This document shows, piece by piece, positions 40,188-59,310 of a stretch of 64,000 bases of DNA. Origin of the DNA: Bacteroidales bacterium (lineage in GTDB: Bacteria; Bacteroidota; Bacteroidia; Bacteroidales; UBA932); NCBI GenBank assembly GCA_017625725.1, contig JAGAKH010000023.1, forward strand, positions 35,292-99,291, read 5' to 3'. Every line of letters begins with the position of its first letter. Position 1 is the stretch's first letter. A program made the position numbers and the translations under genes. The notes under the pieces were generated by a model. It worked only from the letters and a program-made list of their open reading frames with translations, had not been told where the DNA came from and ran no database searches.

Positions 40188-41146
40188 ATATGAATGATAT
40201 AAAAGATCTTTGTTTCAAGTATTTAGGCGGAACTTCGGAGGTTGAAGAGGAGAGGGTTGTCCTGACTTTCATAAAGGAATCTGAAGGCAACAGACTTCTT
40301 TTTGAGGAATGGAAGAGGGAGTGGAAGCAGCAGACTCCGGAATATTCCCAGGTCTTCTCCTTTGGAAAGGTGAAGAATGAAATCCGCAGACGTGAAAAAG
40401 CGAGAAACAGAAAGCTGATGTTATGCTCTGCAGCTGCAGCCGCAGCAATGCTTCTGATTGGAGGACTGGCTGTGCTTTCCATCAATAGAGAGGTCGAGGT
40501 GCCGGAAAACTGTATAGTAAGGACAGGGTACAACGAGAAGACCCAGGTCACTCTTCCGGACAATTCCGTAGTCTGGCTGAATGCCGGATCTTCCTTGAGC
40601 TATTGTGAGGACTTCATAGCCGACACCAGGGAGGTGAGTCTTGTCGGGGAGGCATATTTCGATGTTGTGAAGATGCCGGATTCCCCATTCATTGTCCATA
40701 TCTCAGGAAGTGACATCACGGTCAAGGGAACCAGATTCAATGTGACAGCCTACAGCAATGAAGCCGAGGTTTCGACTTCGCTGATCGAAGGATCCATAGT
40801 CTTTGCTTCCGAAAAGGTTTCTGTTGAGATGATACCTGGAGAACAGCTTGTATATAATGTGTATACGGAGGATATCACAAAGACAAAGACCGACACCCGG
40901 CCGAGCATATCTTGGGTGAACGGCAAGCTTGACTATGCATCGATTTCCCTTCAGAAACTTCTTGAAAGGCTGTCTTCGCTCTATGGCGTAGAATTCCGCT
41001 ACACACCTATCAAATACAAGAACCGTGAGTTCCGTATAAAACTGAATGACAGTGAGCCTATAGATGACATCCTGAATGCGATTTCTGTGATTCTTCCAAT
41101 CGATTATGTGATAGAAGGCAACGTCATAACTGTCACAGAATCCTGA
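40184..41146 (+). CDS. FecR-type anti-sigma factor
   Basis: A 320-residue single-span membrane protein. The start at 40184 (MNMNDIKDLCFKYLGG) overlaps the sigma stop by four bases. A cytosolic N-terminal region (1-75), one membrane helix (LMLCSAAAAAAMLLIGGLAVL, 21 residues at about 75-95; core AAAAMLLIGG) and a periplasmic FecR domain (VTLPDNSVVWLNAGSSLSY, VSLVGEAYFDVVK, ITVKGTRFNVTAYS) and a C-terminal STN-contacting domain (LLERLSSLYGVEFRYTP, ILNAISVILPIDYVIEGNVI) are seen. It should hold the ECF factor until SusC signals substrate arrival. Confidence 0.92.
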   Translation: MNMNDIKDLCFKYLGGTSEVEEERVVLTFIKESEGNRLLFEEWKREWKQQTPEYSQVFSFGKVKNEIRRREKARNRKLMLCSAAAAAAMLLIGGLAVLSINREVEVPENCIVRTGYNEKTQVTLPDNSVVWLNAGSSLSYCEDFIADTREVSLVGEAYFDVVKMPDSPFIVHISGSDITVKGTRFNVTAYSNEAEVSTSLIEGSIVFASEKVSVEMIPGEQLVYNVYTEDITKTKTDTRPSISWVNGKLDYASISLQKLLERLSSLYGVEFRYTPIKYKNREFRIKLNDSEPIDDILNAISVILPIDYVIEGNVITVTES

Positions 41147-44100: not shown

Positions 44101-44487
44101 GGTACTGCAAACACTTACAGGGTGATCGGAAGCGATCTCTTCCTGCCGGGAAGCGGCTCCGGTGTGCTGGGAAACATCCACTCCAACTACACTGACAGCT
44201 GGAGTGTGGATAATCCTCGCCAGGATGTATTCTATCCGAGATTCACCTATGGAACAAGCCAGAACAACAAGCAGGCTTCCACATGGTGGAAGAAGGATAT
44301 GAGCTTCATTCGTCTGAAGACACTTGAACTTGGCTATTCGTTCGATAAATTCAGAGTCTTCTTCAGCGGAAACAACCTCTTCTGTCTGTCAGGCTTCAAG
44401 CTTTGGGATCCGGAGATCGGAGCGAATGACGGTCTGATCTATCCGACGATGAGGACATTCTCCATAGGAGCTACGATTAACTTCTAA
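41185..44487 (+). CDS. SusC-family TonB-dependent transporter with STN signalling domain
   Basis: An 1100-residue outer-membrane transporter. Signal peptide ending LGAGAQ (ATGs at 41185, 41191 and 41203 are all possible starts), STN domain (about 27-78: LSDVLHAMEEQTDCSFIYE, SYEMKGKIVIIS), carboxypeptidase-regulatory-like domain (about 100-185), TonB-box region LDEVVVVGYGTQKR, plug (FSILKDAAASAVYGVRGANG) and barrel ending FSIGATINF. The STN domain is what contacts the periplasmic part of FecR encoded just upstream (38-base gap). Paired with SusD at 44500. Confidence 0.95.
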   Translation: MNMSLIMKRLSLAVSVLLICLGAGAQNISLSFSGASLSDVLHAMEEQTDCSFIYETADLNKASSITIEAKNRSLVSVLNEIIKAPLSYEMKGKIVIISSAKQSVQPQPSTEIRVSGTVMDAANHDPLVGLMVMIKGTTVGTTTDLDGHFSITVPDRDAVLVFDYIGFKQEEITVGSHTKLNVVMHEELSELDEVVVVGYGTQKRLTVVGAVDGVAPKQLQQGTTRSLSNNLAGQLAGVIAVQRTGEPGKDNSDFWIRGISTFSGSSSPLVLVDGVERSLNDMDPAEIESFSILKDAAASAVYGVRGANGVIIINTKRGEVGAPKVSVRYEAAMSEPTQLPDFIGAADYMEVMNGIASDSGITLPYGKEQIRLTRTQYDPDLYPDVDWIDAITNDYAYNQRVNVNVNGGSPVLRYNITTSIFDEKGIMATDDTQSWDGSTALTRYNIRSNVDVDITSTTLLKINIGGYIQQQNTCNHDIEDLFNIAFNTPPDVHPTIYSNGLLAIKDGNQNPWASATQKGFKRISRSKIESQATLEQDFKFITPGLKARVTFAFDSSNQSTVTRGKTPDLYNVAKSRDDDGNLIMNIYSYGQEFLSHSSSGTYGAQSTYFETALSYNRDFGKNYLDFMLLYNQRSYDTGDVLPFRDQGFAGRFSYSYDRRYVAEFNFGYNGSENFAKGHRFGFFPSVALGWLASEEPWMQSVKHIISKLKLRGSYGIVGNDDIQGRRFAYITTLGTNDGYSWGAGGSGGHHTVGNDAHIGRWEGNQGVADLTWEKSAKLDVGFELGLWHSFNLQVDYFYERRSNIFMQRNTIPGSAGFINAPYANYGIVDNHGVDLSMEFNRQFNEDWFLSMKGTFTYAHNTIIEKDEAPSVIGTYRSFTGQSVSTLYGLTAIGLFTDDDFVDPATGELKPGIPLQSYGNVRPGDIRYMDMNGDNIINDEDKGPIGGTETPEIVFGLGASLRWKNWDLSAFFQGTANTYRVIGSDLFLPGSGSGVLGNIHSNYTDSWSVDNPRQDVFYPRFTYGTSQNNKQASTWWKKDMSFIRLKTLELGYSFDKFRVFFSGNNLFCLSGFKLWDPEIGANDGLIYPTMRTFSIGATINF

Positions 44488-44499: not shown

Positions 44500-46371
44500 A
44501 TGAAGAACATCTTTAAATATATATTGATAGCATCCTCAATTCTTTGTGCCGCATCTTCATGCAACTGGCTTGATCAGGTTCCGGAAGATGAACTGACCTT
44601 GGAGATGGTGTTCAATGACAAGACCAGGACAGAAGACTGGCTTGCCGGTGTGTATGCCGGAATTGCCGATCCTTACTGGGACCACATGAAGTTTGCCGGC
44701 TATGATGCCATGAGTGATGACTGCACCCTGCCTCAGGCATGGACTACATTCGGATGGAATATCCTCAATATGGTGGCGGGAAACTGGTCTCCGGCTTCAG
44801 AATGGCAGATGAACTACTGGACGGAACTGCCTAAATACATTCGTTCCGCCTATATATTCATGGAAAACGTGAAGCCGCTTCCTAGTGCAGGCGTTCCTGC
44901 ATCGGAGGTCGAGCTCATGAAGAATGAGGCACGTTTCCTCATCGCCTATTATTATTGGCTGCTTCTGGAGTCCTACGGCCCGATTCCTTTCAGTCCTGGC
45001 CTGGTGTCTTCGGATGCCAGCTATGACGAGCTGATGCTCGAGCAGACTCCGTTCGACACCATCGTAGACTGGATCGACAACGAGCTGATAGAGACAGCAA
45101 AGAATCTCCCGGCATTCTATATAAACAACAACAAGTTCGGAAGGGCGACTTCAGTAATGTGCCATGCCGTGCGTGCCAGAATGCTTCTCTTCGCTGCTTC
45201 TCCTCTGGTCAACGGCAACAGCGACTATGCAGACTACAGGAACAAGTCAGGTGAGAACCTCTTCAGCACTGCTCCGTCTGAAGAAAAATGGAAAAGAGCG
45301 GCAGATGCCTGCAAGGAGCTTATAGAACTGGCCGAGTCAAACGGTTACGGACTTTATTATGAAATGAATGCTGCCGGTCAGATCGATCCCTTCCTTTCTT
45401 ACCAGAACATGATGTTTACAAGATGGAGTGACGGCAACAAGGAAATCCTTTTCCCACGTCCGGGAGGTTGCGACCTTTGGGATTATGAAAAGCATGCACA
45501 GCCTAGAGGAAGTGGAGGAAACGGTGCATTGGGTGTGAGCCAGTCACTTGTGGATGCCTTCTTCATGAAGAACGGTCTGCCGATTGACAACCCTATGTCA
45601 GGCTATAGTGAGACAGGATTCTCGACATCTTCTGACCTTAGGACCAATACATCCTGGAGCCTCGGCTCACCGACTGCAACTCCTGGTGAAATCACCACTG
45701 CAGGGACATATAACATGTATTGCAACAGGGAACCTCGCTTCTATGTAAGTGTACTTTATAACGATGCATGGTACAGACAGTCATCCCGCAGGACAGAATT
45801 CCATAATCACTCCATGGACGGCGGAGGATATGATTCTCCTCAGGCCGGTTATCTGATCAGAAAGAAGGTAAGCCCGGATGTGCATGTGATGAACAATACA
45901 TATGTCTATCGCCCAGGCATCCTTTATCGTCTCGGTGAGGTCTACCTGAACTATGCCGAGGCATTGAATGAATATGATCCCGGAAATCCTGATGTCCTGA
46001 TTTATCTGAACAAGATAAGGGAGAGAGCCGGAGTTCCGATGTATAATGATGGAAATGACCGTATTACAGTCAATGCTTCCGATAAGGAACTGATGCGTGA
46101 GCTCATCAGAAAGGAGAGAAGGGTGGAACTTTGTGTAGAGGGAATAAGATATAACGACCTTCGCCGCTGGAAAGAGGCAGAGGCCGTGCTTACCGGTCAG
46201 GTTGAAGGAATGAATGTCAATGCCACCGTAAAGGATGAATATTTCAGGCGAACCAAGCTGGACATTGTGCGAAGCTATAAGAAGGCCTTCTATTTCCAGC
46301 CGGTTCCGGCATCCGAAATGGACAAGAATCCTAATCTGGTCCAGAATCCTTATTGGCTGTCAAACGAATAA
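44500..46371 (+). CDS. SusD-family surface lipoprotein
   Basis: A 623-residue RagB/SusD lipoprotein (signal MKNIFKYILIASSILCAASSC, then NWLDQVPEDELT). Family features: NEARFLIAYYYWLLLESYGPIPF, YRLGEVYLNYAEALNE and the C-terminal RKERRVELCVEGIRYNDLRRW. It binds the substrate for the SusC at 41185, from which it is separated by 12 bases. Sequence alone does not reveal the ligand. Confidence 0.94.
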   Translation: MKNIFKYILIASSILCAASSCNWLDQVPEDELTLEMVFNDKTRTEDWLAGVYAGIADPYWDHMKFAGYDAMSDDCTLPQAWTTFGWNILNMVAGNWSPASEWQMNYWTELPKYIRSAYIFMENVKPLPSAGVPASEVELMKNEARFLIAYYYWLLLESYGPIPFSPGLVSSDASYDELMLEQTPFDTIVDWIDNELIETAKNLPAFYINNNKFGRATSVMCHAVRARMLLFAASPLVNGNSDYADYRNKSGENLFSTAPSEEKWKRAADACKELIELAESNGYGLYYEMNAAGQIDPFLSYQNMMFTRWSDGNKEILFPRPGGCDLWDYEKHAQPRGSGGNGALGVSQSLVDAFFMKNGLPIDNPMSGYSETGFSTSSDLRTNTSWSLGSPTATPGEITTAGTYNMYCNREPRFYVSVLYNDAWYRQSSRRTEFHNHSMDGGGYDSPQAGYLIRKKVSPDVHVMNNTYVYRPGILYRLGEVYLNYAEALNEYDPGNPDVLIYLNKIRERAGVPMYNDGNDRITVNASDKELMRELIRKERRVELCVEGIRYNDLRRWKEAEAVLTGQVEGMNVNATVKDEYFRRTKLDIVRSYKKAFYFQPVPASEMDKNPNLVQNPYWLSNE

Positions 46372-46383: not shown

Positions 46384-47490
46384 ATGAAAAACAAGATATT
46401 ATCAACAGCAGCTTTGTTGTTCGTCCTGGCAGGATGCAACACTGAAGAGAATCCGTATGCACCGGTCGGGGGTGATCCCATCGCCATACAGTCAAGTGTA
46501 CAGGAAGTGGTTCTCGAGCAGTCCCGTGACAATGAGACAGCGGTGACATTCACCTGGAACAAGGGATTCGAGTACAATGACAATGTCAAGGTCACATATT
46601 GCTTCAAGATAGATGTAGCAGACAATAATTTCGAGACAGCGACCGAGCTGGAAGTGCTCGGAGACGATGTCTTTGAGAAAACTTATACTGTTGAACAGCT
46701 AAATGACCTGTGTCTGGAGCAGTGGAACATCACTCCGGGCGAGCCTGTAAGGCTTGAAGCCAAGGTGATCGCACGCCACACGGCAGACAAGTTCATCATG
46801 CCTCAGGTTGCTACCGTAGCCTTCGATGTCAAGACATATGAACTGACATCTTCTCCTCTATACATCATAGGAGATGCCATAACTGTTGATGGAAGGCCTA
46901 TAGGATGGAATCCTTCGAATGCCTTGAGGATGACCGAGGAGGTGCTTTCCCGCATATACAGCATCAAGTGCGACTTTACTCCGGGTGAATATCTTTTCCT
47001 CAGAAGCAACACTTCTCTTGACCCTGCTTATGGAAAGGGCAATGACAAGGCTATAGAGCTCTATGAGCAGAATGCCGTACGGCTTGTCATGGAACGCGAA
47101 CAGTCGTATACAGTAAGGGTGAATGTCAAGAAGGGAACGCTTGACCTTATATATCATCCTCAATATGATAACATCTACATGGTCGGCGACGCAACGCCTA
47201 ACGGATGGACTATCGAAGATGCTACTCCTCTTGTCTGGACGGAGAATACCGGAGAGTTTGTCTATGAAGGCCCTCTCAAGACCGGGGAACTCAAGTTTGC
47301 GGCTGGTGAGGCCTCATGGGATGTCCCATTCTATATGTCTGTTACTGCGGGACAGGAAGACCTTACCGTGACATCCGTCATGTTCGTTCCGCCGGGAGGT
47401 CCGGATAATAAATGGAAGATCACCGAAGCAGGAAACTACAGGATTACCCTTGATATCGATAAACTGAAGATAAAATTTGAAAAACTATAA
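46384..47490 (+). CDS. SusE/SusF-like surface glycan-binding lipoprotein
   Basis: A 368-residue lipoprotein (FVLAGC, then NTEENPYAP; acidic residues after the cysteine fit surface export). An N-terminal SusE domain (about 30-150, VVLEQSRDNETAVTFTWNKG) precedes two SusE/F-type beta-sandwich modules (LYIIGDAITVDGRPIGWNP and NIYMVGDATPNGWTIEDAT). Such modules bind starch in SusE/SusF but have other ligands elsewhere. Probably holds the glycan for the adjacent SusC/D pair. Confidence 0.85.
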   Translation: MKNKILSTAALLFVLAGCNTEENPYAPVGGDPIAIQSSVQEVVLEQSRDNETAVTFTWNKGFEYNDNVKVTYCFKIDVADNNFETATELEVLGDDVFEKTYTVEQLNDLCLEQWNITPGEPVRLEAKVIARHTADKFIMPQVATVAFDVKTYELTSSPLYIIGDAITVDGRPIGWNPSNALRMTEEVLSRIYSIKCDFTPGEYLFLRSNTSLDPAYGKGNDKAIELYEQNAVRLVMEREQSYTVRVNVKKGTLDLIYHPQYDNIYMVGDATPNGWTIEDATPLVWTENTGEFVYEGPLKTGELKFAAGEASWDVPFYMSVTAGQEDLTVTSVMFVPPGGPDNKWKITEAGNYRITLDIDKLKIKFEKL

Positions 47491-47507: not shown

Positions 47508-49652
47508 ATGAAAAAGACATTAATCGCATTGCTTTCGATTTTCTCGATTGCCCTTGTTTCATCATGTCAGAAGGACGTGGTGGAAGAAAAGACAAATGAA
47601 CTTAAACCGATTGAAGTCACTGCATCGGAGAATCTTCTCGAGGTGACGTGGACAGACAACAGCGTCTATGCCGATCCTGTGACTTATAACGTGGTGTTCT
47701 CTCTCAAGGGAGGTTCAGACTCCCAGGTCTATGAACAGGCATCTGTAACAAGTCCGTTGACACATACCTCTGCAGCCGTACAGGCTCTGTTGGTGAATGA
47801 CTGGAAGGTTGCAGAAGGAAGCCAGGTCGCTGTGAATGTGGTTGTAAACGTCCTTCAGGGCGGAAAAGTGATTCACAGCAGTGATGCTGTCGAGGCTAAG
47901 GTTACTGTCGAGGCTTCGATCAAGCCGCTGGCTCTTTCGATTGATCCTCTTACAGTAGTCCTTTCTGAGGATTCATCAGATCAGACCGCTGTGACTTTCT
48001 CTTGGACTGATGAAAACAAATACTCGGATGTCTCTTATCGCCTTATCCTCAAGGCAGGAAGCAAGTCCGAGACTGTTGAGGCATCTGCTAAGGAACTTTC
48101 TTTCACAAATGCTGAATTCAATTCACTTGTAAGGGAAAAGCTCGGAATGGAAGCATCTGTCACAGCTGATGTCGAGGCTGTCGTCGAGGCTTACTCTGCT
48201 TCTGGCGTTCTTGCATCATCTTCAACTGTATTCTTCAGTGTCATGCCTTTCGGAAAGATGACCGAGTACAGTTCTCTTGCCGTAATGGGATCTGCAACTG
48301 CAGCCGGTGACAATGTGGCTTCTGCCATCGAAATGACAAAGGGTGAAGGTGCAGTGTTTACATGGAAAGGTGAGCTCAAGAAGGGCGGCAAGCTCCGTAT
48401 TCTTGTGGAGCCGGACGGAACGGCTGATGCGGACTGTCTCATCCCTTCATCAGATGAAAAGGAAATCGTGTCTGGAACACTTGAGAACATTATCCTTGAC
48501 AGGAAGACAGACGATCCTAGGAAGGAGTACAGCTGGACAGTTCCTGTATGGGGAATCTGGGAAATTACAGTAGATCTTGCTGAAAGAACCCTTCAGTTCG
48601 ACCTTGCTACCAGGAAATACAACAATATAGGAATGGTAGGACCTGCAACTCCTAACGGATGGGATGCAGTCAATCCGACACTCTTCACGACTACAGACAA
48701 GAAAGTCTTCACATGGGAAGGTTCCCTCAAGACAGGTACTATGCGTTTCCTCAATGATCCTTCTTCTGCCGGTTGGGAAGTTGACCAGTACATCGCTACA
48801 GAAGCTGACAAGGAAGTGATTTCAGGCGAGTCGCAGAGGATCGTCCTTGCTGCGGTAGGAGGTCCAAGAGGTGACAATATGTGGAAGGTCACTACTCCTG
48901 GAACATATAAGATCACAATTGATATTGACGAGATGACCATTCTTTATGAGCTCACAGGAAGCCTCATATCTTCTTTCAACAACATCAAGATGGTCGGTCC
49001 TGCTTCACCGGGCGGATGGGATTCGGCTAACATGACTCCTCTTCAGAAGGATGGTCAGGGCTGGAAATGGACAGGTCATCTCAATAATGGCGAAATAAAG
49101 TTCGTATGCAACCAGAACGGCAATGACTGGGGTGAAGCCCAGCTTCTTGCAAAGACTGAAGGTGCCGGAGTATCTGTTGCTGAAGGTACGGAATATACAT
49201 CCAATATAGGTGGTGACGACTGGAAGTGGGTAATCCGTAACAGCGGTAACTATACAGTCTCTATCGACGCATTCGGTAAGATAACCTACACAATCAATTC
49301 TCTTGATGTAGCAGATTCAAACTATCCTTCCCTCGGACTTATCGGTGATGCAGCTCCTAACGGATGGAACCAGTCTTATACAGAGTCTACCCTTCTTCCT
49401 GAAGGTAACGGCGTCTATGTGTGGACCGGTAATCTCAATGCTGGTGGTCTCCACATCATGTGTGATGTGACCAAGACTGACTGGTCAAGCCCTAGATTCA
49501 CAGCACCATACGGAGGTATTACAGCAGAGTCAGGCAAGAAGCTCCCTGTAGTATGGAAGCAGAACGATACGAACTGGAACATTCCTGAGGCAGGAACCTA
49601 TAAGGTTACAGTGAATGTAAACGAAATGACAATCAAATTTGAAAAACAGTAA
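47508..49652 (+). CDS. Multidomain SusE/SusF-like lipoprotein
   Basis: A 714-residue lipoprotein (LVSSC, then QKDVVEEKT). It has two SusE N-terminal-type beta domains (about 30-130 and 140-250; LLEVTWTDNSVYADPVTY and DQTAVTFSWTDENKYSDVSY) and four SusE/F-type modules, each opening with a VMGSAT/MVGPATPNGWD/MVGPASPGGWD/LIGDAAPNGWN signature (starting near 260, 370, 490 and 605). Four repeats is more than in classic SusF (three). The ATG of the next gene follows one base after its stop. Confidence 0.85.
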   Translation: MKKTLIALLSIFSIALVSSCQKDVVEEKTNELKPIEVTASENLLEVTWTDNSVYADPVTYNVVFSLKGGSDSQVYEQASVTSPLTHTSAAVQALLVNDWKVAEGSQVAVNVVVNVLQGGKVIHSSDAVEAKVTVEASIKPLALSIDPLTVVLSEDSSDQTAVTFSWTDENKYSDVSYRLILKAGSKSETVEASAKELSFTNAEFNSLVREKLGMEASVTADVEAVVEAYSASGVLASSSTVFFSVMPFGKMTEYSSLAVMGSATAAGDNVASAIEMTKGEGAVFTWKGELKKGGKLRILVEPDGTADADCLIPSSDEKEIVSGTLENIILDRKTDDPRKEYSWTVPVWGIWEITVDLAERTLQFDLATRKYNNIGMVGPATPNGWDAVNPTLFTTTDKKVFTWEGSLKTGTMRFLNDPSSAGWEVDQYIATEADKEVISGESQRIVLAAVGGPRGDNMWKVTTPGTYKITIDIDEMTILYELTGSLISSFNNIKMVGPASPGGWDSANMTPLQKDGQGWKWTGHLNNGEIKFVCNQNGNDWGEAQLLAKTEGAGVSVAEGTEYTSNIGGDDWKWVIRNSGNYTVSIDAFGKITYTINSLDVADSNYPSLGLIGDAAPNGWNQSYTESTLLPEGNGVYVWTGNLNAGGLHIMCDVTKTDWSSPRFTAPYGGITAESGKKLPVVWKQNDTNWNIPEAGTYKVTVNVNEMTIKFEKQ

Positions 49653-49653
49653 A

Positions 49654-51375
49654 ATGAAATGCTTCATAAGCCTTTTGGCGGTTTCCTGTATCTTCTTTGC
49701 TTCATGCAATTCTGAATTAAAGGAATCAGAAACCTCAAAAGTGGTGACTTCACTGCAGTTGTCCGCGACAGAATGTGTTCTGTCGCAGGACAACAATGTG
49801 GCGGAGGCATTGAAGATAGAGTGGTCCGGAGTAGACGGAAATCCTTCAGCAAAGACTCTCCTGTCTATAAGTGCAGAGGGAAACGATATGGTCTGGAGCA
49901 AGTCCTTTGATGGCGGCATAAGCTCATATGTGTTTTCAAGCTCTGCCTTGAATGCTCTTGTGGTCGACCATCTGAGGATCCAGCAGGAGAATCCGGTCGA
50001 ACTCAAGGTCAAGGTCTATGTCACAGCGTCGAAGGCATGGAAACTCAGCGATGATTCTGACAGTACTTACGTGAAGGTCAAGGCTTTCATACCGGTGTAT
50101 CCGGATCATCAGCATAAGGCACCAAGGTATTGGAGTCCATACGAGTACAACTTCCTGACCAATAAGTCAATGCCGGAGAGCGAGTGGAAAAGGAACATCG
50201 ACTGGGTGGCAGAAAACCTCAAGAACTACGGTTTTACCATGGTTTCTACAGACGGGTGGATGAATGAGACTGATGCCTTTGATGAAGACGGATATCTGGA
50301 CCGTCACTCCCTTCAGTGGGAGCATGATTATGGTTATTGGGCAGAGTATCTCGAGTCTAAGGGCATGATGCTCGGTGTCTATGCCAATCCTCTGTGGGTC
50401 CCATCCGGGGCGGCATCCGCAGGCTTGAAAATCAAGGGGACGGATATCCCGATAGAGGATATCATCAACCGTGGAGAGTATCATAACCATCACAACTATC
50501 TCTGGGTGCAGCTGGACAGGCCTGGTGCCGAGGAGTGGGTTCGTGGTTATGTTGACCACTATGCGGAGATGGGTGTAAGGTACCTCAGGGTAGATTTCAT
50601 GTCCTGGTATGAGGATGGCTATGACAAAGGATTCGGAAAGGTCGGACCGGACCGTCCTGACTGGATGTATCCTACAGCCTTGAGATGGATCCGTGAACAA
50701 TGCGACAAGCATGGAATGATATTCTCTCTTGTAATGCCGCATCTTTACAAAGACGCTGCTGTCGAGAAGAATTACGCCCATATGATCAGGATCGGAAACG
50801 ATACCGGTAAGGGAACCTGGTATATGTTCTCAGACAGGGATAAAGGAATACATTATAAGCACTGGTCTCAATATGCCAATCCTTTTGATGGTTTCATATA
50901 CTTCTCAAGGGTTAGCGGAAGGGGAAAGGTCATGCTTGACGGTGATTTCATCCGTCTGAATACATTTGAAAATGATGATGAATGCCGTTCCGTAGTAAGT
51001 ATAAATGTCATTGCCGGAGGTCCTTTGACAGTGGCGGATCTGTATCAGACAGCTGGAATCAGAGTGAAGTTCTATCAGAACAGGGAACTGCTGGCTCTTA
51101 TGGATGACGGCTTCGTAGGCAAACCGAAGTCAAATGATCCTTTGAGTGAGGACAGCCAGATATGGAACGGAGAAATGACTGATGGTGACGTGATCATTGC
51201 TGTCTTCAACAGGCATGCGGCTCAAAAAGAGTTCACGGTCAATGTAAAGGAATTCTGCTCTTTTACACCTAAGACCGTACGTGACATCTGGGAGCACAAG
51301 AATATCACGGTCCGTGACGAATATACTTTTTCTGTTCCTGCACATGGCTGTGTGGTTTACAGACTGGCAAAATAA
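49654..51375 (+). CDS. Lipoprotein with SusE-type N-terminal domain and GH27/GH36-like catalytic domain
   Basis: A 573-residue lipoprotein. The ATG at 49654 gives MKCFISLLAVSCIFFASC; an in-frame TTG at 49639 inside the previous gene is rejected. Residues about 30-140 (SLQLSATECVLSQDNNVAEA, core EALKIEWSG) match the SusE N-terminal domain of the two preceding proteins. The rest is a clan-D TIM barrel: GFTMVSTDGWM, MLGVYANPLWVP, the likely nucleophile in RYLRVDFMSWYEDG (Asp314), a candidate acid/base in RIGNDTGKGTW, and a C-terminal beta sheet. Alpha-galactosidase activity is the default guess; other alpha-linkages are possible. Confidence 0.75.
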   Translation: MKCFISLLAVSCIFFASCNSELKESETSKVVTSLQLSATECVLSQDNNVAEALKIEWSGVDGNPSAKTLLSISAEGNDMVWSKSFDGGISSYVFSSSALNALVVDHLRIQQENPVELKVKVYVTASKAWKLSDDSDSTYVKVKAFIPVYPDHQHKAPRYWSPYEYNFLTNKSMPESEWKRNIDWVAENLKNYGFTMVSTDGWMNETDAFDEDGYLDRHSLQWEHDYGYWAEYLESKGMMLGVYANPLWVPSGAASAGLKIKGTDIPIEDIINRGEYHNHHNYLWVQLDRPGAEEWVRGYVDHYAEMGVRYLRVDFMSWYEDGYDKGFGKVGPDRPDWMYPTALRWIREQCDKHGMIFSLVMPHLYKDAAVEKNYAHMIRIGNDTGKGTWYMFSDRDKGIHYKHWSQYANPFDGFIYFSRVSGRGKVMLDGDFIRLNTFENDDECRSVVSINVIAGGPLTVADLYQTAGIRVKFYQNRELLALMDDGFVGKPKSNDPLSEDSQIWNGEMTDGDVIIAVFNRHAAQKEFTVNVKEFCSFTPKTVRDIWEHKNITVRDEYTFSVPAHGCVVYRLAK

Positions 51376-51427: not shown

Positions 51428-53446
51428 ATGCTGAAGAAATTACTTTTTTTGACGATTGTTTCTGTCGGGGGACTTCTTCTCCCGACAGATTCATATGCAC
51501 AGGATGGCTGGACCATCACTGCAGAGGGTGAATGCAGGGACTATACAGGTGCTTCGGCTGCAAACGGAACCATGGGTGTCCTGCACTGGAAAGAACCGTT
51601 CTCAGTAAGGCAGCTTGTGTTGAACAATGTATTCGAACTGAATGACAATACCTTGGTCAACTGTGCCGTGCTTGGTCTTAATCCTTTTGATATCATCATG
51701 TCTGTTGACGGGCGTCAGCTGACCTCATATTCGGATTGGCGTCAGACCATCGACATGCGTAATGCAGAGCACAGGACATCATTCAGGGTGGGTAACAAGC
51801 TGAATGTGGACTATGCTCTTATCGCATTGAGGAACCTTCCGCATACGGCCCTGTTCAAGATCACTCTGGAGGCGGAGAAGCCTGTCAGTGTCAGGTTCGA
51901 CAAGGGTATAAGTGTTCCGGATGGAGATTATCGCGAACCGCGTTATTCTCAAAGGGAATATGATGCTGACGGCAGACATATAAGGATGCAGCAGCTGTCC
52001 GCTCAGACAATCCATGGCCGTTATGATGTTTCTGCCGGTTCCACCTTCCTTTTCGATGAAAGCAAGGGTAAATACAGAGTCTCCGGTGAAAGAACTTTTC
52101 TTGACATCAGTCTCAAGGCAGGAGAGAAGACTACACTCTATATCGTCGGTTCAGTCTGCACGACGGCCGAGTATTCCGACCCTTACAGCGAAGTCCGCAG
52201 GGAAATCGTTTATGTAGACAGGAGCGGTGCTGAGACGATCATCGAAGGCCATAGAAGAAAATGGGATGAACTTTGGGAATCCGACATAAGGATTGTCGGC
52301 GACATGGAAGCCCAGCTGGCAGTCAGACTCGGCCTCTACAGCCTTTATTCGTCATGCCGTGAAGGCACAGGCCTGAGTGTCCCTCCAATGGGTCTTTCGT
52401 CTCAGGGATATAACGGACATATCTTCTGGGATACGGAATTATGGATGTATCCTCCTATGCTCCTTCTTAATCAAGGTATTGCACGATCTATGGTAGACTA
52501 TAGGACAGACAGGATGGAAGCGGCAAGGAAAAAGGCCGGTGATTACGGTTATAAGGGCCTGATGTTTCCGTGGGAATCTGATTCATTTGGTCAGGAATCG
52601 ACTCCTGACTGGGCCTTGACCGGACCTATGGAACACCATATAACAGCTGATATCGCTGTCGCTGCGTGGAACTATTACTGTGTGACAAAGGACATAGACT
52701 GGCTTCGTGAGACAGGCTGGGAACTTTTCAAGGGAGTAGCGGAGTTCTGGGTCAGCAGGGTAAGGGAGAATGCAGACGGAACATATTCTATTGTCGGAGT
52801 GGTCGGTGCGGATGAGTATGCTCAGAATGTGACCGACAATGCATTTACCAATGGTGCAGCCAAGGTCGCCTTGAGAAATGCCGTCAAGGCTGCCAGGCTG
52901 TGTGGCCGTAATGCTCCTCAGGAGTGGAGCCGTATCGCGGATGGGCTCCGTATTCTGAAAGGTCCGGATGGAGTAACCTGGGAATTCGAAGGCTATAACG
53001 GTCAGACCATCAAGCAGGCCGACGTGAATCTGCTTGCCTATCCTTTGGGAATCATCAAGGACAAGGAGCAGATGCGTAAGGACCTTGAATACTATGAAAG
53101 CAAGGTTGACCGTGTGAACGGACCTGCAATGACTTTCAGTTCGTTTGCCACTCAGTATGCACGTCTTGGAGAAAGAGAGAAGGCTACACAGATGTTCAGG
53201 AGGGCATATCAGCCGAACAGCCGTCCTCCTTTCGGGGTCTTTGCGGAAACCCCGACATCCAACAATCCGTATTTCACTACAGGAGCCGGCGGAATGCTTC
53301 AGGCTGTCCTTTATGGTTTTGCCGGACTGGAAATCACTGATGATGGCATAAAGCAGCTGGAACCTTGCCTTCCGATAGGTTGGGAAAGCCTTGTTGTGAC
53401 AGGTGTAGGTCCTGAAAAGAAGACATATACCATCACTGCAGATTAA
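51428..53446 (+). CDS. GH65-family glycosidase/phosphorylase, exported
   Basis: A 672-residue protein with a Sec signal (LLPTDSYAQ). An N-terminal beta-sandwich (to about 270) and (alpha/alpha)6 barrel with GH65 marks: GYNGHIFWDTELWMYPPML, ARKKAGDYGYKGLMFPWESD and the general acid in VVGADEYAQNVTDNAFTN (Glu463). GH65 enzymes hydrolyse or phosphorolyse alpha-glucosides such as trehalose, kojibiose or nigerose; the human member removes Glc alpha-1,2-linked to Gal on collagen. Export to the periplasm favours a hydrolase, since phosphate-dependent cleavage is usually cytosolic. Target linkage is not readable here. Confidence 0.86.
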   Translation: MLKKLLFLTIVSVGGLLLPTDSYAQDGWTITAEGECRDYTGASAANGTMGVLHWKEPFSVRQLVLNNVFELNDNTLVNCAVLGLNPFDIIMSVDGRQLTSYSDWRQTIDMRNAEHRTSFRVGNKLNVDYALIALRNLPHTALFKITLEAEKPVSVRFDKGISVPDGDYREPRYSQREYDADGRHIRMQQLSAQTIHGRYDVSAGSTFLFDESKGKYRVSGERTFLDISLKAGEKTTLYIVGSVCTTAEYSDPYSEVRREIVYVDRSGAETIIEGHRRKWDELWESDIRIVGDMEAQLAVRLGLYSLYSSCREGTGLSVPPMGLSSQGYNGHIFWDTELWMYPPMLLLNQGIARSMVDYRTDRMEAARKKAGDYGYKGLMFPWESDSFGQESTPDWALTGPMEHHITADIAVAAWNYYCVTKDIDWLRETGWELFKGVAEFWVSRVRENADGTYSIVGVVGADEYAQNVTDNAFTNGAAKVALRNAVKAARLCGRNAPQEWSRIADGLRILKGPDGVTWEFEGYNGQTIKQADVNLLAYPLGIIKDKEQMRKDLEYYESKVDRVNGPAMTFSSFATQYARLGEREKATQMFRRAYQPNSRPPFGVFAETPTSNNPYFTTGAGGMLQAVLYGFAGLEITDDGIKQLEPCLPIGWESLVVTGVGPEKKTYTITAD

Positions 53447-53506
53447 ATTCATATCTGTACTGTTAACGGTTTTTATAGTTTTTTTCCGGATTAAGGATAA
53501 AAATTG

Positions 53507-53561
53507 TATTTTTGTTTTCCTGCTTGATTATTTCCTTTTCAGGAACTGTCAGGCAGGAAAA
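53507..53561 (+). promoter_or_regulatory. Promoter and leader hairpin of the 3-keto trio
   Basis: TATTTTTG (53507-53514) fits the -7 box. The leader then forms a hairpin with perfect arms TTTTCCTGC (53515-53523) and GCAGGAAAA (53553-53561) before the ATG at 53592. Independent expression of the three following genes is implied. Confidence 0.5.
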
Positions 53562-53591
53562 ACTGTATACGGGGATTAAATATCTGGACAT

Positions 53592-54884
53592 ATGGAAAGA
53601 AGAAGTTTTCTTAAGAAAGCAGGATTAGGAGCTTTAGCATTCACCATTCTTCCGAGACACGTCTTCGGAAAGATGGGAGGTGACAATAATTTTGTCGCTC
53701 CGAGCGATCAGTTGACAAAAGGTATAATCGGTCTAGGCGGTATCGGACGCTCTTCAAATCATTTTACCTCTGATGAAAGATGCCGTCTTGTGGCACTCTG
53801 TGATGTGGATTCCGGACACCTTGCAAAGGCAAGGGAACTGGCAAAATCGAAATTCGGCCAGTCAATGACGGAATACCATGATTTCAGAGACCTTATTCAT
53901 GACCCTAATGTGGATGTAGTACACATTGCTACTCCTCCTCACTGGCATGGAATAATGGCTGTTGAGGCAGCGAATGCAGGTAAGGATATCTTCTGTGAGA
54001 AACCTATGACCAGAACTATCGGAGAAGGCAAGAGGGTCCGTGAGGCTGTAAAGCGTAACGGCCGGATCTTCCGTCTTAACACCTGGTTCCGTTTTGCCGA
54101 CACTTTCTATGGCCTTGGCACTACAGTGGAACCATTGAAGAAGCTTGTCGACAGCGGCCTCCTCGGATGGCCATTGACAGTCCGTATTTCGGGTGCGACA
54201 GGATTTGCCTGGAAATTCTTCTGGACTGGAAAGGAGAATCTTGTCCCGGAACCGGTCCCTGCAGAACTGGATTACGATTTCTGGTTGGGTCCGGCACCAA
54301 ATAAGCCATATAATTCTCACAGGGTTCATCAGACATTCCGTGGATATTGGGATTATGACGGTGGAGGACTCGGTGACATGGGACAGCACTATATTGACCC
54401 TGTACAGTATATCCTTGGTAAAGACAATACTTTCCCTGTAAAAGTTGAGGTTGATGCACCTCAGCAGCATCCTGATGCGATCGGAATCTGGAGAAGCATT
54501 ACCTATACCTATGAGGACGGCTGCAAGATCATCCTTGAGGGTGAGGGCTTTGAGAGTGCCGGAAAGGTACCTTATATCGAAGGACCTCTGGGCAAGGTGT
54601 ACAAGGGCTTCGAGTGTACAATTCCAAATGTTCAGGAAATAATTGCAGAACTTCCTGATCCGGAGCCTCAGAATACAGATTTTATAAATTGTGTTCACAA
54701 CCGCCGGAAATTCGCTCTTAATGAAGATAACGGTTACCATAGCAGTACGATCGTCAATATGGGTATCTGTGCCCACAGACTGGGCAGAACCCTTCATTTC
54801 GATCCCAAGACCCAGCTCTTCATCGGGGATGATGCTGCGAATCAGCTCATAGACCAGCCAATGCGTGGCGACTGGAAAATCTGA
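53592..54884 (+). CDS. Tat-exported Gfo/Idh/MocA-family oxidoreductase
   Basis: A 430-residue NAD(P)-fold enzyme with a twin-arginine signal (MERRSFLKKAGLGALAF). Nucleotide site IGLGGIGRSS (about 46-55), family motif DIFCEKPMTRTIGEG with the conserved EKP, and DYDGGGLGDMGQHYIDPVQYI in the C-terminal domain. Tat export as a folded, cofactor-loaded protein is typical of periplasmic members that oxidise or reduce glycoside hydroxyls. First gene of the trio, followed after 3 bases by the DUF1080 gene. By analogy to the B. thetaiotaomicron pathway it would interconvert glycosides and 3-keto-glycosides. Confidence 0.85.
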   Translation: MERRSFLKKAGLGALAFTILPRHVFGKMGGDNNFVAPSDQLTKGIIGLGGIGRSSNHFTSDERCRLVALCDVDSGHLAKARELAKSKFGQSMTEYHDFRDLIHDPNVDVVHIATPPHWHGIMAVEAANAGKDIFCEKPMTRTIGEGKRVREAVKRNGRIFRLNTWFRFADTFYGLGTTVEPLKKLVDSGLLGWPLTVRISGATGFAWKFFWTGKENLVPEPVPAELDYDFWLGPAPNKPYNSHRVHQTFRGYWDYDGGGLGDMGQHYIDPVQYILGKDNTFPVKVEVDAPQQHPDAIGIWRSITYTYEDGCKIILEGEGFESAGKVPYIEGPLGKVYKGFECTIPNVQEIIAELPDPEPQNTDFINCVHNRRKFALNEDNGYHSSTIVNMGICAHRLGRTLHFDPKTQLFIGDDAANQLIDQPMRGDWKI

Positions 54885-54887
54885 TAA

Positions 54888-57275
54888 ATGACACCAATCA
54901 TGAAAAGGACACTATCATTAATAATATCAATATTCACAATATGTGGAATCCTTTCAGCTCAGGATTCGAGAGAAAGGACACTTGAGACCATCGTTCAGGA
55001 TGTTCTTGCTGCACTCCCGGCTGAAAATCAGACGGAATTCAATACAAACATGCACGATCTGGCCAAGTCGGCTCCGGCTTCGGTCGTATATCTTGCTTCA
55101 AGGCTTCAGCCTGTCGAGGCGGGAGTCAATAATCTTGTGGAATATGCAATCAGCGGTGTAGTCAGATATGCTACGGCTCCGGAGTCTGCAAGCCTCAAGG
55201 ATGGAGTCAGAAGCGGACTTGAAAAGGCTCTTGAGACATGTAAGGATGATAATCACAGACAGTTCCTGGAGTCCCAGCTCAGACTGATGAAGCCTTATTC
55301 TGCAGCACCTGCCGTATTCAATGCAGTTGAGGGCAAAGGTAGCAATGCCCGTTGTGCAGAGTTATGGACTCTGACAGACGGAAAGGGAGAAAAAAGTGAG
55401 AAAAAGATTCTTGCAGCCTTAAGAAGTGATGACCGTGCAGTAAGGACAACAGCCCTTCTTGCCTATGAGGCTTATGCTGATGATGACTTTTATGCCAAGG
55501 TTGCAAAAACATACAGGAAACTTTCTCCTGAGGCTAAAGCCGATGTGATATATTGGATAGGCAAAAAGGATGTACAGTCTCAGATTCCTCTGGTTCTTTC
55601 TGAGCTGGAGGCTGGTGGTGAGATCGGATCCAATGCCATTGAGGCGGCGGGCAGACTTGGGGGCAGTGAAGCCGCAGACAAGCTCGTGGCTATGGTAGGA
55701 GGCCCTCGTTCTTCAGAGGCTCTCGCAGCACTGAAATACATTGATTCAGATATCACTGCACTTGTACAGGATGGCATGAAGAAAGCTGAAGGGGAGAGAT
55801 TGAACGGACTTATGAAACTGGCTTCGGACAAGCACATGTGCGGAGCTGCCCCTGTGGTTCTTGAGTATGCTGCGTCGAAGGATGCAGACCTTGCATCCAA
55901 GGCTGCTGCAGCACTTGCCGGCGTGGTTTCTGCTTCTGATTTTCCAGCAGTGGCAAGTCTGTATGATTCATCGGAATCAGAGAAGGGAACTTTGAAAAAA
56001 GCCATCAATTCATCTCTTGCGACTCTTCCGGCAGATGAAAGGTATGATCTTGTAATGAATCATATAGCAAAGGCTTCACATCCTGAATCATTCTATATCG
56101 TTCTGGCGGAAACAGGTTCTGACAAGGCAACAGACTATCTTCTTGCAAGGCATGCAGAAGGTTCAGGACCAGCATCCGATGCACTTCTGACCATCCGAAG
56201 CATGAAGGTGGCTCCGGTTCTTCTGGAAGCCTCGTCTGACAACCAGACATGCCTCAAGACATTTGCAGATATTGTATCGGAGCAGGTGAGCGAAGACAAC
56301 CGTAAATGTGAGGAATATTCCAAGGCTTTTGACAGGGCTGTCGATCCGGCTGTGAAGAATCATATTCTTGTGCTGCTCGGCAAGATTCCGTCATCCAGGG
56401 CATTCAGCATGGCAGGATCATATCTGGATTTACCGGAGACTTCATATGCTGCAGCTTGGGCAGTGAAGACAATTGCATCCAAGGGTGTTGACGACATTGA
56501 CTATTATGAGCTTACCAAGGTACTTGGAAAGGCAGTTGATGTGTTGAAATCAACCGGAAATGCTGATGACGGTTATGCTGTCGATGAGATAAAGGGAATC
56601 CTGGAAGCGGCAAAACCATATGAATTGTCCAAGCTTACAGAAGAAGAGGCTGCTCAGGGCTTTGAAATGCTTTTTGACGGAAGCGACCTTTCAAAATGGA
56701 CCGGTGACAAGGTTGGTTACAGAGTGGCAAACGGTTGCATCAATGTGACTGCAAGCTATGGAAATTCCGGAAATCTATATACTGAAAAGGAATATTCCGA
56801 TTTCATCTTCCGTTTTGAGTTCTGCTTTACAAGAGGTGGAGTGAACAACGGCGTCGGCATAAGGACTCCTATGGGAGTTGATGCGGCTTATCATGGCATG
56901 GAGATCCAGGTTCTCGATCATGATGATCCGATCTATGCAGATCTTCGTGATTATCAGGTTCATGGCTCGGTCTATGGAATCATTCCGGCAAAGCGTCTGG
57001 TTCATAAGCCTCTCGGCGAATGGAGCTATGAGGAAATCCGCGTGAAGGGAGACAGGGTGACCGTTATTGTGAACGGCGAAGTTATCGTCGACGGCAACAT
57101 AAGAGAAGCTTGCCAGGGACATAATGTCGCTCCGGACGGCAGCAAGAAGAATCCTTATACTGTTGACGGGAAGAATCATCCGGGTCTTTTCAACAAGAAA
57201 GGCCATATCGGTTTTCTCGGTCACGGTGAAGGCTTGAAATACAGGAATGTGAGGGTGTTGGATCTCAGTAAATGA
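54888..57275 (+). CDS. HEAT-repeat protein with C-terminal DUF1080 (3-keto-disaccharide hydrolase-type) domain
   Basis: A 795-residue exported protein (signal ending GILSAQ; the ATG at 54900 is an alternative start). Residues about 25-590 are alanine-rich helical repeats of HEAT type (for example AAGRLGGSEAADKLVAMVG, VVLEYAASKDADLASKAAAA). From about 591 follows a DUF1080 domain: GFEMLFDGSDLSKWTG, FRFEFCFTRGGVNNGVGIRT, YHGMEIQVLDHDD, HIGFLGHGEGLKYRNVRV. DUF1080 proteins act on 3-keto-glycosides, cleaving by elimination/hydration. It sits between two Gfo/Idh oxidoreductases, the expected partners. The long HEAT part may be a docking scaffold. Confidence 0.85.
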   Translation: MTPIMKRTLSLIISIFTICGILSAQDSRERTLETIVQDVLAALPAENQTEFNTNMHDLAKSAPASVVYLASRLQPVEAGVNNLVEYAISGVVRYATAPESASLKDGVRSGLEKALETCKDDNHRQFLESQLRLMKPYSAAPAVFNAVEGKGSNARCAELWTLTDGKGEKSEKKILAALRSDDRAVRTTALLAYEAYADDDFYAKVAKTYRKLSPEAKADVIYWIGKKDVQSQIPLVLSELEAGGEIGSNAIEAAGRLGGSEAADKLVAMVGGPRSSEALAALKYIDSDITALVQDGMKKAEGERLNGLMKLASDKHMCGAAPVVLEYAASKDADLASKAAAALAGVVSASDFPAVASLYDSSESEKGTLKKAINSSLATLPADERYDLVMNHIAKASHPESFYIVLAETGSDKATDYLLARHAEGSGPASDALLTIRSMKVAPVLLEASSDNQTCLKTFADIVSEQVSEDNRKCEEYSKAFDRAVDPAVKNHILVLLGKIPSSRAFSMAGSYLDLPETSYAAAWAVKTIASKGVDDIDYYELTKVLGKAVDVLKSTGNADDGYAVDEIKGILEAAKPYELSKLTEEEAAQGFEMLFDGSDLSKWTGDKVGYRVANGCINVTASYGNSGNLYTEKEYSDFIFRFEFCFTRGGVNNGVGIRTPMGVDAAYHGMEIQVLDHDDPIYADLRDYQVHGSVYGIIPAKRLVHKPLGEWSYEEIRVKGDRVTVIVNGEVIVDGNIREACQGHNVAPDGSKKNPYTVDGKNHPGLFNKKGHIGFLGHGEGLKYRNVRVLDLSK

Positions 57276-58492
57276 TAATGACGGAAAAGACGATAAGAAT
57301 AGCGGCTATAGGGCTGGGAAACAGAACGTGCAAGTATCTGCGTTTTGTCAAGAAGAACCCGTCTATGGCGACATTGACTGCAATTGCAGACAGTGACAGG
57401 CAGAGGCTTCTTGCTGTTCAGGAAAGGTTTGGCCTTGAAGATAATGCATGCTTCACATCTCCTGATGAATTCTTCTCCACTGTGAAGGATGTCGACATCT
57501 GTATTATAGGCACACCGGACAAATATCACTATGACATGACGGTCAGAGCTCTTGCCAATGGCTGGAATGTACTTCTTGAAAAACCGATGGCTCAGGAAGC
57601 AGATGAGTGCAGGAAGATAGCGGAGCTATCACAGCAGACCGGTCTGATGGTCTCTGTATGCTATGTTCTCAGATATCATCCGTATTTTGTCAAGATGAAG
57701 GAGCTCACTACCAGACCTGATCTGGGCAGGATACTTTCTGTAAGGCATGTTGAAAGAGTGGGAATCGACAGGACCACCCATACCTATGTCCGCGGTCCTT
57801 GGACATATAAGGAGATGCACACCTCGATGTTCTTCTCCAAATGCTGTCATGATGTGGATTTTGTCCTCTGGCTCACCGGAAACGATGTCCGCACGGTCTC
57901 TTCTTTCAAGGAGGGGCGTCCGTTCGATCCGTCCCTTGCTCCGAAAGGTGCTGCAAACAGATGCATATGCTGTTCAAAGGAAGGCAACTGCCGTTATTCG
58001 GCAGTTGACCTGTATCTTCGCAGACGCGACTGGATAAAGGGGTTCATTCCTTATCCGGATGAAGAGGAAAGGGATACCATTCTCAGAATGCTCAGTGAGA
58101 GCCGATTCGGAAGGTGTGTATATAACTGCACGGATACCGATGCTGTCGATCGTCAGACGGTCGTCCTTGAGATGGAGTCACGCATACGTTCGGAAATCGT
58201 CATGGAGTGCATCACGGAGGAAGACAACAGGCTTACTGAAATACAGTGTGAGAATGCTGTCATTTCCGGAGATGAAACCACAATTACCGTCCGGTTCAAG
58301 GACGGACGTGAGGATGAATCCTACGATTTCAGCTGGACAAAGGGACTTGGATATCATGCCAATGCCGATTTCCATATAATTGAGGATCTGATTACGGCAG
58401 TTGCTTCGGGAAGAAAAGAGCTCAGGACTTCTGCCGCTGATGCTGTTGTAAGTCATATCGTATGTCTGAAGGCAGATAATCATCCCGCTTGA
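57272..58492 (+). CDS. Cytosolic Gfo/Idh/MocA-family oxidoreductase
   Basis: A 406-residue enzyme without export signal. Nucleotide site IAAIGLGNRTCKYL (about 10-23), NVLLEKPMAQEADE, and a mid-protein RCICCSKEGNCRYSAVDLYL segment, a Cys-bearing loop seen in one subgroup of the family. Overlaps the DUF1080 gene by four bases (ATGA), so coupled translation is likely. In the 3-keto scheme it could reduce the imported 3-keto-sugar to a hexose; alternatively inositol- or other polyol-type dehydrogenase activity is possible. Confidence 0.82.
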   Translation: MIMTEKTIRIAAIGLGNRTCKYLRFVKKNPSMATLTAIADSDRQRLLAVQERFGLEDNACFTSPDEFFSTVKDVDICIIGTPDKYHYDMTVRALANGWNVLLEKPMAQEADECRKIAELSQQTGLMVSVCYVLRYHPYFVKMKELTTRPDLGRILSVRHVERVGIDRTTHTYVRGPWTYKEMHTSMFFSKCCHDVDFVLWLTGNDVRTVSSFKEGRPFDPSLAPKGAANRCICCSKEGNCRYSAVDLYLRRRDWIKGFIPYPDEEERDTILRMLSESRFGRCVYNCTDTDAVDRQTVVLEMESRIRSEIVMECITEEDNRLTEIQCENAVISGDETTITVRFKDGREDESYDFSWTKGLGYHANADFHIIEDLITAVASGRKELRTSAADAVVSHIVCLKADNHPA

Positions 58493-58704: not shown

Positions 58705-59310
58705 ATGGCACACGAGGAAAATCTATCGATCGGAGTCTTTATTGACGGAGGATACTATGCTAAGATCAATGAAGGATTTGGAGATGCCAGGGAGGTAAAT
58801 CTCAAGGCTCTTCTGAATTTCATCACCAGAAAGATCGCTCAGGACAACAAGATAGAAACCAGACGCCTTTATTTGACGGAATGTCATTACTACAGAGGAC
58901 GTTACAGAGCAGATGATGCAAAGTCCAGAAATCTTCTTTATGCTGAGCGTCGGTTTGAAGATATGCTTATCGAGAATGATGTGATCTTCCACTACAAGCA
59001 TCTGCGTACTAATCCTAAAGGAGGAGTCATTGAGAAAGGTGTAGACACCTGGTTTGCTCTGGATACATATGAAATGACTCTTTACAGAGAGTTCGATTTT
59101 GTCGTCCTTATCAGCGGTGACGCTGACCATGAGATGCTTGCCCGCAAGCTCAAAGCCTTGAAAACCCATGTGATACTCCTCACCTGGGATCCTGCCGACA
59201 CCGCCTCCACCTCCCGTTTTCTTAAGGAGGAAGTATGTACCCATATGGATATGAACGCCTTGATATCTGCAGACCACTCGCTGCTCCAGACGCTGACAAT
59301 TACTGCCTGA
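58705..59310 (+). CDS. NYN-domain (LabA/DUF88-like) predicted ribonuclease
   Basis: A 201-residue protein of the PIN-like NYN fold: SIGVFIDGGYYAKINEGFG with the first catalytic Asp, KGVDTWFALDTYEM (middle acidic residue), DFVVLISGDADHEMLARKLKAL (GDxDF-type motif reading GDADHE) and VILLTWDPAD. NYN proteins are metal-dependent nucleases acting on RNA in many contexts. It has its own promoter and no evident operon partner. Confidence 0.86.
   Translation: MAHEENLSIGVFIDGGYYAKINEGFGDAREVNLKALLNFITRKIAQDNKIETRRLYLTECHYYRGRYRADDAKSRNLLYAERRFEDMLIENDVIFHYKHLRTNPKGGVIEKGVDTWFALDTYEMTLYREFDFVVLISGDADHEMLARKLKALKTHVILLTWDPADTASTSRFLKEEVCTHMDMNALISADHSLLQTLTITA

Follow-up and report, generated by a model that had tools for sequence, protein, structure and literature searches.

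INTRODUCTION

Non-hydrolytic cleavage of sugars through 3-keto intermediates has been worked out in gut bacteria only recently. Here, we describe a candidate second version of this chemistry, encoded by three consecutive genes for a Gfo/Idh oxidoreductase (GfoA), a secreted protein combining a HEAT-like region with a PF06439 (DUF1080) domain (the HEAT-PF06439 protein), and a second Gfo/Idh protein (GfoB). The trio lies in a 64,000-nucleotide stretch of DNA (the window) from a Bacteroidales bacterium of the UBA932 lineage, which corresponds to positions 35292 to 99291 of contig JAGAKH010000023.1 (contig C3) in GenBank assembly GCA_017625725.1, a genome of 2.3 Mb in 129 contigs that is about 80% complete by estimate.

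The closest described system is the BT2156–BT2159 pathway of Bacteroides thetaiotaomicron, which combines Gfo/Idh proteins with a PF06439 lyase and a sugar isomerase/epimerase. BT2158 is described as a glycoside 3-dehydrogenase of the periplasm, and a mutant that lacks it does not grow on trehalose, leucrose, or palatinose (PMC11300592). Palatinose is an alpha-1,6 disaccharide that resembles isomaltose. As in that pathway, the trio places an exported Gfo/Idh protein with a PF19051 region beside a PF06439 protein, and the two systems share PF06439 residues, have Gfo/Idh proteins in sister clades, and are near neighbors in three related genomes. Unlike that pathway, the trio carries no TIM-barrel gene and has its PF06439 domain fused to a long HEAT-like region, and the proteins of the two systems fall in separate clades.

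Other routes are more distant. In the LacABC and PF06439 lactose route proposed in Caulobacter and Pedobacter, a PF06439 protein likewise acts after C3 has been oxidized in the periplasm, but the dehydrogenase is a membrane-bound three-component enzyme rather than a Gfo/Idh protein exported by twin-arginine translocation (Tat) (PMC9007349). DgpA/PuCGE and the Agrobacterium tumefaciens AtOGE-AtHYD-Gfo system follow the same sequence of oxidation, beta-elimination, hydration, and reduction, whereas the lyases of these C- and O-glycoside pathways are described as CGE or sugar phosphate isomerase/epimerase types, not PF06439 proteins (PMC10628242, PMC13273386).

RESULTS

An earlier note on this DNA, made from the sequence alone, had reported a Tat-exported Gfo/Idh enzyme, a HEAT-DUF1080 protein, and a cytosolic Gfo/Idh enzyme as consecutive genes with a 3-base gap and an ATGA overlap. 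The open reading frames and the sequence bear this out on the forward strand: GfoA occupies positions 53592 to 54884, the HEAT-PF06439 protein 54888 to 57275, and GfoB 57272 to 58492, with TGA-TAA-ATG forming the 3-base gap at the first junction and ATGA the overlap at the second. Domain matches, the RRSFLK motif, and a TatC gene also support the three predicted protein identities, with the HEAT label weak and both the Sec-type signal of the second protein and the lack of a signal in GfoB read by eye. This anatomy (genes, spacing, and domains) is confirmed as real and as more than chance, because full-length relatives keep the same order in many genomes. An NYN-domain gene (58705 to 59310) lies directly 3' of the trio.

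GfoA is a predicted periplasmic glycoside C3 dehydrogenase. It has a PF01408 domain and a C-terminal PF19051 domain (462 bits), and R3, R4, and F6 of its N-terminal twin-arginine motif are invariant in all 25 aligned relatives; with this signal and TatC encoded in the genome, it qualifies as a predicted Tat-exported oxidoreductase. Mean column identity across the 25 aligned sequences is 76%, and K137, D262, and H266 are conserved. In a search against curated models, the best family was the BT_2158 glycoside 3-dehydrogenase (NF058561), at 134 bits, with the next family at 72 bits. The best solved relatives in a single-sequence search were 8tdf (E value, 2.7e-24) and 8tdh (1.3e-22), with DgpA (7xr9) fourth; a profile search again put 8tdf (5.3e-33) and 8tdh (3.9e-30) first, with DgpA third. 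We take 8tdf to be a structure from the B. thetaiotaomicron 3-keto-glycoside pathway, and DgpA oxidizes C3 of C-glucosides. When 23 Gfo/Idh proteins were placed in a tree, which left out solved outgroups such as inositol dehydrogenases, the GfoA relatives came out as sister to the BT2158 family, with support of 1.0 for the two together and 0.85 for GfoA relatives alone; GfoB, a GH109-type protein of the window, and one further Gfo/Idh protein fell outside this grouping.

Since GfoA belongs to the same superfamily as glycoside hydrolase (GH) family 109, and a real GH109 is encoded elsewhere in the window, GfoA might instead be a self-sufficient NAD-dependent glycosidase of the GH109 or GH188 kind, performing every step from oxidation through elimination and hydration to reduction in one active site, with the HEAT-PF06439 protein as a mere binding partner. 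We consider this very unlikely. The GH109 C-terminal domain (PF21252) is absent from GfoA and GfoB and is matched by the window GH109 gene; the lysine of the EKP motif is kept in GfoA and is missing from the window GH109 in the same alignment; and GfoA groups with the BT2158 family. A GH109 identity for GfoA was rejected on these three grounds, and a PF06439 partner that retains the residues described below also argues against the one-enzyme explanation. The GH109-type gene itself (22595 to 24016, minus strand) lies beside genes for a melibiase-like protein and a PfkB sugar kinase.

The HEAT-PF06439 protein is predicted to be a 3-keto-glycoside lyase and/or hydratase. Its PF06439 domain (residues 591 to 790; positions 56658 to 57257) scores 128 bits, above the gathering cutoff of 26.8. 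The preceding region reaches 32.0 bits for HEAT_2 (cutoff, 27.7) with no single stretch significant by itself, and HEAT_2 exceeded its cutoff in five of eight relatives scanned, which makes HEAT a fair but weak label for the window protein. The N terminus reads by eye as a Sec-type signal, and because M5 is nearly invariant among relatives, the true start of the gene may be at 54900. Two longer members of this type, of 1,141 and 1,129 amino acids (loci L112 and L118), have two PF06439 stretches versus one in the window protein, and in L089 (9560 to 11858), one of the paired loci described below, the gene is broken into two overlapping reading frames by either a frameshift or an assembly error.

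Loss of the DUF1080 active-site residues, named in the earlier note as contrary evidence, was looked for by alignment, and the residues shared with the lyase clade proved intact. N653, G655, E672, Q674, Y696, W712, and H779 of the HEAT type are also found in the lyases, including a lyase-type protein encoded elsewhere in the same genome on contig C76. E672, Q674, Y696, and H779 do not vary in an alignment of the window protein with 58 relatives. These shared E, Q, and Y positions can change when not needed, because all three are replaced in the second domain of four aligned two-domain PF06439 proteins; the His of that second domain is kept in one alignment and, for one protein, is aligned to Asn in another. 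H779 probably equals His275 of the B. thetaiotaomicron lyase, as judged from the count of residues after H779 and the presumed identity of 3osd. The H275N variant of the B. thetaiotaomicron enzyme shows impaired hydration of 2-hydroxy-3-keto-glucal (PMC13273386). When 26 PF06439 domains were compared in a tree, those of the HEAT type fell into a clade of their own (support, 1.0), two short proteins included, and the lyases grouped separately with the first domains of the two-domain protein (0.93).

GfoB combines PF01408 and PF22725 and, by eye, has no signal sequence. C231, C234, and C240, together with C282, are invariant in all 30 aligned relatives, and the first three (residues 231 to 240) likely constitute a metal site. 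Its predicted function as a 3-keto-sugar reductase is the weakest assignment of the trio.

The partnership between GfoA and the HEAT-PF06439 protein extends well beyond this genome. At least 592 GfoA relatives were confirmed, and neighborhoods were taken from the best 80 of the 592, that is, the closest ones, with neighbor counts resting on stop-to-stop frames rather than annotated genes. Two of these 80 loci are titled as other groups (L102 as Akkermansia and L127 as Clostridiales), probably as mislabeled bins. A HEAT-PF06439 gene lies directly 3' of GfoA in 79 of the 80 loci (78 by script and L115 by inspection), and at L133 the contig ends at GfoA; in 5 of the 79 paired loci (L122, L140, L141, L144, and L148), the contig ends before the PF06439 domain. 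At L115, GfoB is present after a 1.2-kb gap. The two-domain PF06439 protein is encoded directly 5' of GfoA in 17/80 loci (15 from the script, with L112 and L114 recognized on inspection) and 3' in L102, and the four-gene string of two-domain PF06439 protein, GfoA, HEAT-PF06439 protein, and GfoB occurs in 13 (L104, L106, L109, L112 to L115, L118 to L121, L124, and L127). The genome studied here also encodes such a two-domain protein, lipoprotein-like by eye, on its contig C4 (L153, 219 to 1535). In five rumen Bacteroidales loci (L094, L096, L098, L101, and L110), the pair stands 3' of ribosomal-protein genes and 5' of uvrC (names assigned by eye), with no recognized sugar locus.

Broader samples gave a similar picture. 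Among 295 genomes sampled from the order, GfoA was found in 29 and a strong HEAT-PF06439 match in 25; most partner matches span the PF06439 domain alone, the long region before it matching weakly. The PF06439 domain lies on the same strand within about 3 kb of GfoA in 24 of the 29 genomes, and 2 more are linked through the N-terminal part of the partner. The exceptions are G023 and G136, which are cut by contig ends, and G199, in which no partner was detected beside GfoA; likewise, no partner was detected in the 1.5-kb flank of a second GfoA copy in G289 (its contig C4). GfoB relatives occur in 12 of the 295 genomes, none linked to GfoA save the window's own. In a phylum-wide sample of 395 genomes, 15 encode GfoA, and 12 of 13 GfoA loci outside the order have an adjoining PF06439 gene of 516 to 1,172 residues, of which 11 best match the HEAT type and 1 (L223) the two-domain type; L217 is without a partner. 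The pair is therefore old and broadly distributed, although most genomes lack it, and GfoB is an optional third gene.

The same genome carries a canonical-type operon separately. On the minus strand of contig C76 (L154, 6328 to 9656), a BT2158-2157-2156-like operon encodes a BT_2158-family Gfo/Idh protein (824 bits), a lyase-type PF06439 protein, and a xylose-isomerase-like TIM barrel. The PF06439 protein matches chains 3osd and 8rr2, which we take to be of B. thetaiotaomicron origin, at E values of about 1e-120. The gene content of this operon is as reported for BT2156–BT2158 (PMC10434189). An identity of the trio with BT2157–BT2159 was rejected, since its scores fall below the curated cutoffs and the canonical-type operon stands on C76. 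In the genome as a whole, at its estimated completeness, no protein exceeded the cutoff of the BT_2159 disaccharide 3-dehydrogenase model (NF058563). In three relatives the two systems are near neighbors: a BT_2158-family gene (769 and 775 bits; cutoff, 750) and a PF06439 gene directly follow the four-gene string in L119 and L124, and in L092 such a gene (839 bits) and a PF06439 gene lie about one gene before the pair. In that same region of L119, a protein (17764 to 19464) fuses a xylose-isomerase-like TIM barrel to PF06439, uniting the BT2156 and BT2157 types; L124 holds a cluster mate, placed by clustering only.

The trio is co-directional with a SusC/D locus in front of it, all of whose genes lie on the plus strand. 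The earlier note had called this locus ECF regulated, and genes for an extracytoplasmic function (ECF) sigma factor (39636 to 40187) and a FecR anti-sigma protein (40049 to 41146) do precede those for a SusC-like TonB-dependent transporter (41185 to 44487), a SusD-like protein (44500 to 46371), a SusE/SusF-like protein (46384 to 47490), and a SusF/SusE-like protein (47508 to 49652). The GH65 and GH27-like enzymes of the note are present and can be specified further. The GH27 (49639 to 51375) is of the isomaltodextranase type and is fused to SusE, with a Melibiase_C domain and an N terminus that is lipoprotein-like by eye; its GH27 domain (residues 160 to 576) matches isomaltodextranase PDB 5awo (E value, 1.8e-96). 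The GH65 (51428 to 53446) is of the kojibiose hydrolase type, passing the curated model NF053734 (821 bits; cutoff, 800) and matching PDB 7fe3 (6.5e-178). Because GH65, GH27, and SusC/D/E occur together, the locus is predicted to act on branched dextran, yielding isomaltose and alpha-1,2 side glucose.

This arrangement resembles the FjDexUL locus of Flavobacterium johnsoniae in its sugar-binding proteins, transporter type, and GH65 kojibiose hydrolase, which there serves the use of alpha-1,2- and alpha-1,3-branched dextran (PMC10316084). FjDexUL also uses GH66, GH31, and GH97 enzymes (PMC10316084), whereas the window locus has the isomaltodextranase-type GH27, no GH31 or GH97 inside it by domain scan, and the trio behind it. 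The same kind of GH65 occurs in ECF/FecR/SusC loci of other genomes (L182, L183, L184, and L186), and in a further GH65 locus (L180) a lyase-type PF06439 gene (51%) lies about 3.4 kb from the GH65 end. The possibility that a known mobile element carried the trio was rejected: a plasmid search (near mode) gave no match, viral contigs held no relatives, and GC content is even (0.45 to 0.49) across the junction of the dextran locus and the trio.

Elsewhere in the window, a GH31-type glycosidase (28518 to 30185, minus strand) stands apart from the dextran locus. The region from 4884 to 20583 encodes a LacI regulator, a PfkB kinase, and a permease of the sugar/ureide type. Next comes another SusC/D locus, which includes DUF4978, BACON, and Fib_succ_major proteins together with a nucleoside hydrolase and a CotH protein; a role in nucleoside or ribose scavenging is possible.

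DISCUSSION

Our proposal is that the trio encodes a second 3-keto-glycoside cleavage module, parallel and sister to the published pathway, a reading that comparative evidence leads us to hold with roughly even confidence. The earlier note had likened these genes to the glycan breakdown route of B. thetaiotaomicron. The 3-keto chemistry is still the best-supported reading, given the tree, the shared residues, and the BT_2158-family neighbors in three relatives; identity with the described module did not survive. The gene order, domains, signal sequences, kept residues, broad occurrence of the pair, and sister position of GfoA are observed; the reactions, how the cofactor cycles, the substrate, and what GfoB does are inferred, as follows. 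Tat would export GfoA in folded form with its nicotinamide cofactor bound, and in the periplasm the enzyme would oxidize C3 of the glucosyl unit at the nonreducing end of a di- or oligosaccharide. Next, the partner's PF06439 domain would take the C2 proton and split the glycosidic bond by elimination, giving 2-hydroxy-3-keto-glucal, to which water would be added to form 3-keto-glucose, either by the HEAT-PF06439 protein or by the two-domain PF06439 protein encoded elsewhere in the genome. The keto sugar might be reduced by GfoA's own bound NADH in a redox-neutral periplasmic cycle; alternatively, it might be taken up and reduced by cytosolic GfoB. In this genome, isomaltose and kojibiose-type sugars produced through the preceding dextran locus would be the likely substrates. 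Because the first two proteins carry export signals, the site of this work would be the periplasm.

Several observations weigh against this proposal. GfoA misses the NF058561 cutoff of 750 bits by a wide score difference and is only 26 to 28% identical to the four BT_2158-family members compared. GfoB scores only 30 bits against NF058563, for which the cutoff is 650, and its nearest solved relatives are inositol dehydrogenases; it follows the pair in 20 of the 80 loci, 67 of which have at least 1.3 kb of downstream sequence. At the cutoffs used, one same-genus and two same-family genomes contained no GfoA, HEAT-PF06439 protein, GfoB, or GH65. The HEAT-type PF06439 domain falls outside the lyase clade, and the window domain is closest to the uncharacterized structures 4jqt, 3hbk, 3s5q, and 3imm (57.5 to 42.9 bits), with the lyase-type chains 8tda and 8rr2 scoring lower (39 bits). 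R659, H692, and H764, which are invariant in the HEAT-type clade (59/59) and missing from lyases (H692 being Thr in L221), suggest that the substrate or step of this clade may differ from that of the lyases. In B. thetaiotaomicron, single deletions of BT2157 or BT2158 caused no growth defect on raffinose-family oligosaccharides (PMC11501099). Finally, searches of openly licensed literature, outside which most subscription papers fall, found no characterized member of the GfoA or HEAT-PF06439 clade and no description of the pair.

Some of these points would also suit an explanation in which the HEAT-PF06439 protein is carbohydrate binding or structural and both Gfo/Idh proteins merely interconvert or oxidize free sugars or inositols. 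PF06439 domains adopt a jelly-roll fold, HEAT solenoids commonly serve as scaffolds, no activity is known in the clade, the nearest solved structures of the domain are uncharacterized, and GfoB is nearest to inositol dehydrogenases. The invariance of E672, Q674, Y696, and H779 across the window protein and its 58 relatives, at positions of which E, Q, and Y are replaced in second domains of two-domain proteins, speaks against this explanation, and we regard a purely binding or structural role as quite unlikely.

The choice of substrate is a separate matter. In the flanks examined, GH65 or GH27 isomaltodextranase relatives are found in 0/80 GfoA loci and a SusC relative in only 3/80, and trio genes are found in 0/11 GH65 loci. 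The position behind GH65 and GH27 genes, described as embedded in the earlier note, is real in this genome, and the trio-dextran association has been seen only here; a fixed place for the trio in dextran loci was rejected on the same counts. Nor was the proposed promoter of the trio's own confirmed. The 145-base gap between GH65 and GfoA (53447 to 53591) contains a −7-like TATTTTTG at 53507 to 53514, and TANNTTTG is near chance frequency in the window (34 occurrences versus 28.8 expected); of five full −33/−7 promoter matches in the window, none is within the gap, which leaves a separate promoter unproven. The genome also holds three GH97 and three GH31 genes outside the dextran locus, one GH31 being in the window, that could hydrolyze isomaltose, and the idea that no other enzyme could cut this sugar was rejected for that reason.

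The neighbor counts at GfoA and GH65 loci speak for an alternative in which the pair serves a widespread scavenging or housekeeping role on a substrate unrelated to dextran, for example aryl glucosides, inositols, or envelope or anhydro sugars, and its position behind the dextran locus is an accident of rearrangement. The strong conservation of GfoA across differing neighborhoods and the placement of the pair near ribosomal-protein genes and uvrC in several rumen genomes point the same way. Against it stand the shared direction of the trio and the dextran locus, the even GC content across their junction, and the activity of the characterized sister pathway on an isomaltose-like alpha-1,6 sugar, palatinose (PMC11300592). 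On balance, its probability falls a little short of even, and it competes with the substrate claim only, not with the proposed 3-keto chemistry.

A bolder extension of the parallel-module proposal would see a second, phylum-wide 3-keto-glycoside system in which the HEAT solenoid holds dehydrogenase and lyase together so that the reactive keto intermediate is handed over, and which was recruited in this lineage to cut the alpha-1,6 bond of isomaltose, replacing the GH31 and GH97 enzymes of FjDexUL. We consider this extension unlikely as a whole.

In sum, the GfoA and HEAT-PF06439 pair is highly conserved and looks like a second branch of 3-keto cleavage that has a fused scaffold and partners of its own. 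A function for the pair would cover relatives, of which at least 592 are confirmed, that are annotated just as “Gfo/Idh” and “DUF1080.” If the proposal holds, non-hydrolytic chemistry might take the place of a glycosidase behind a polysaccharide locus.

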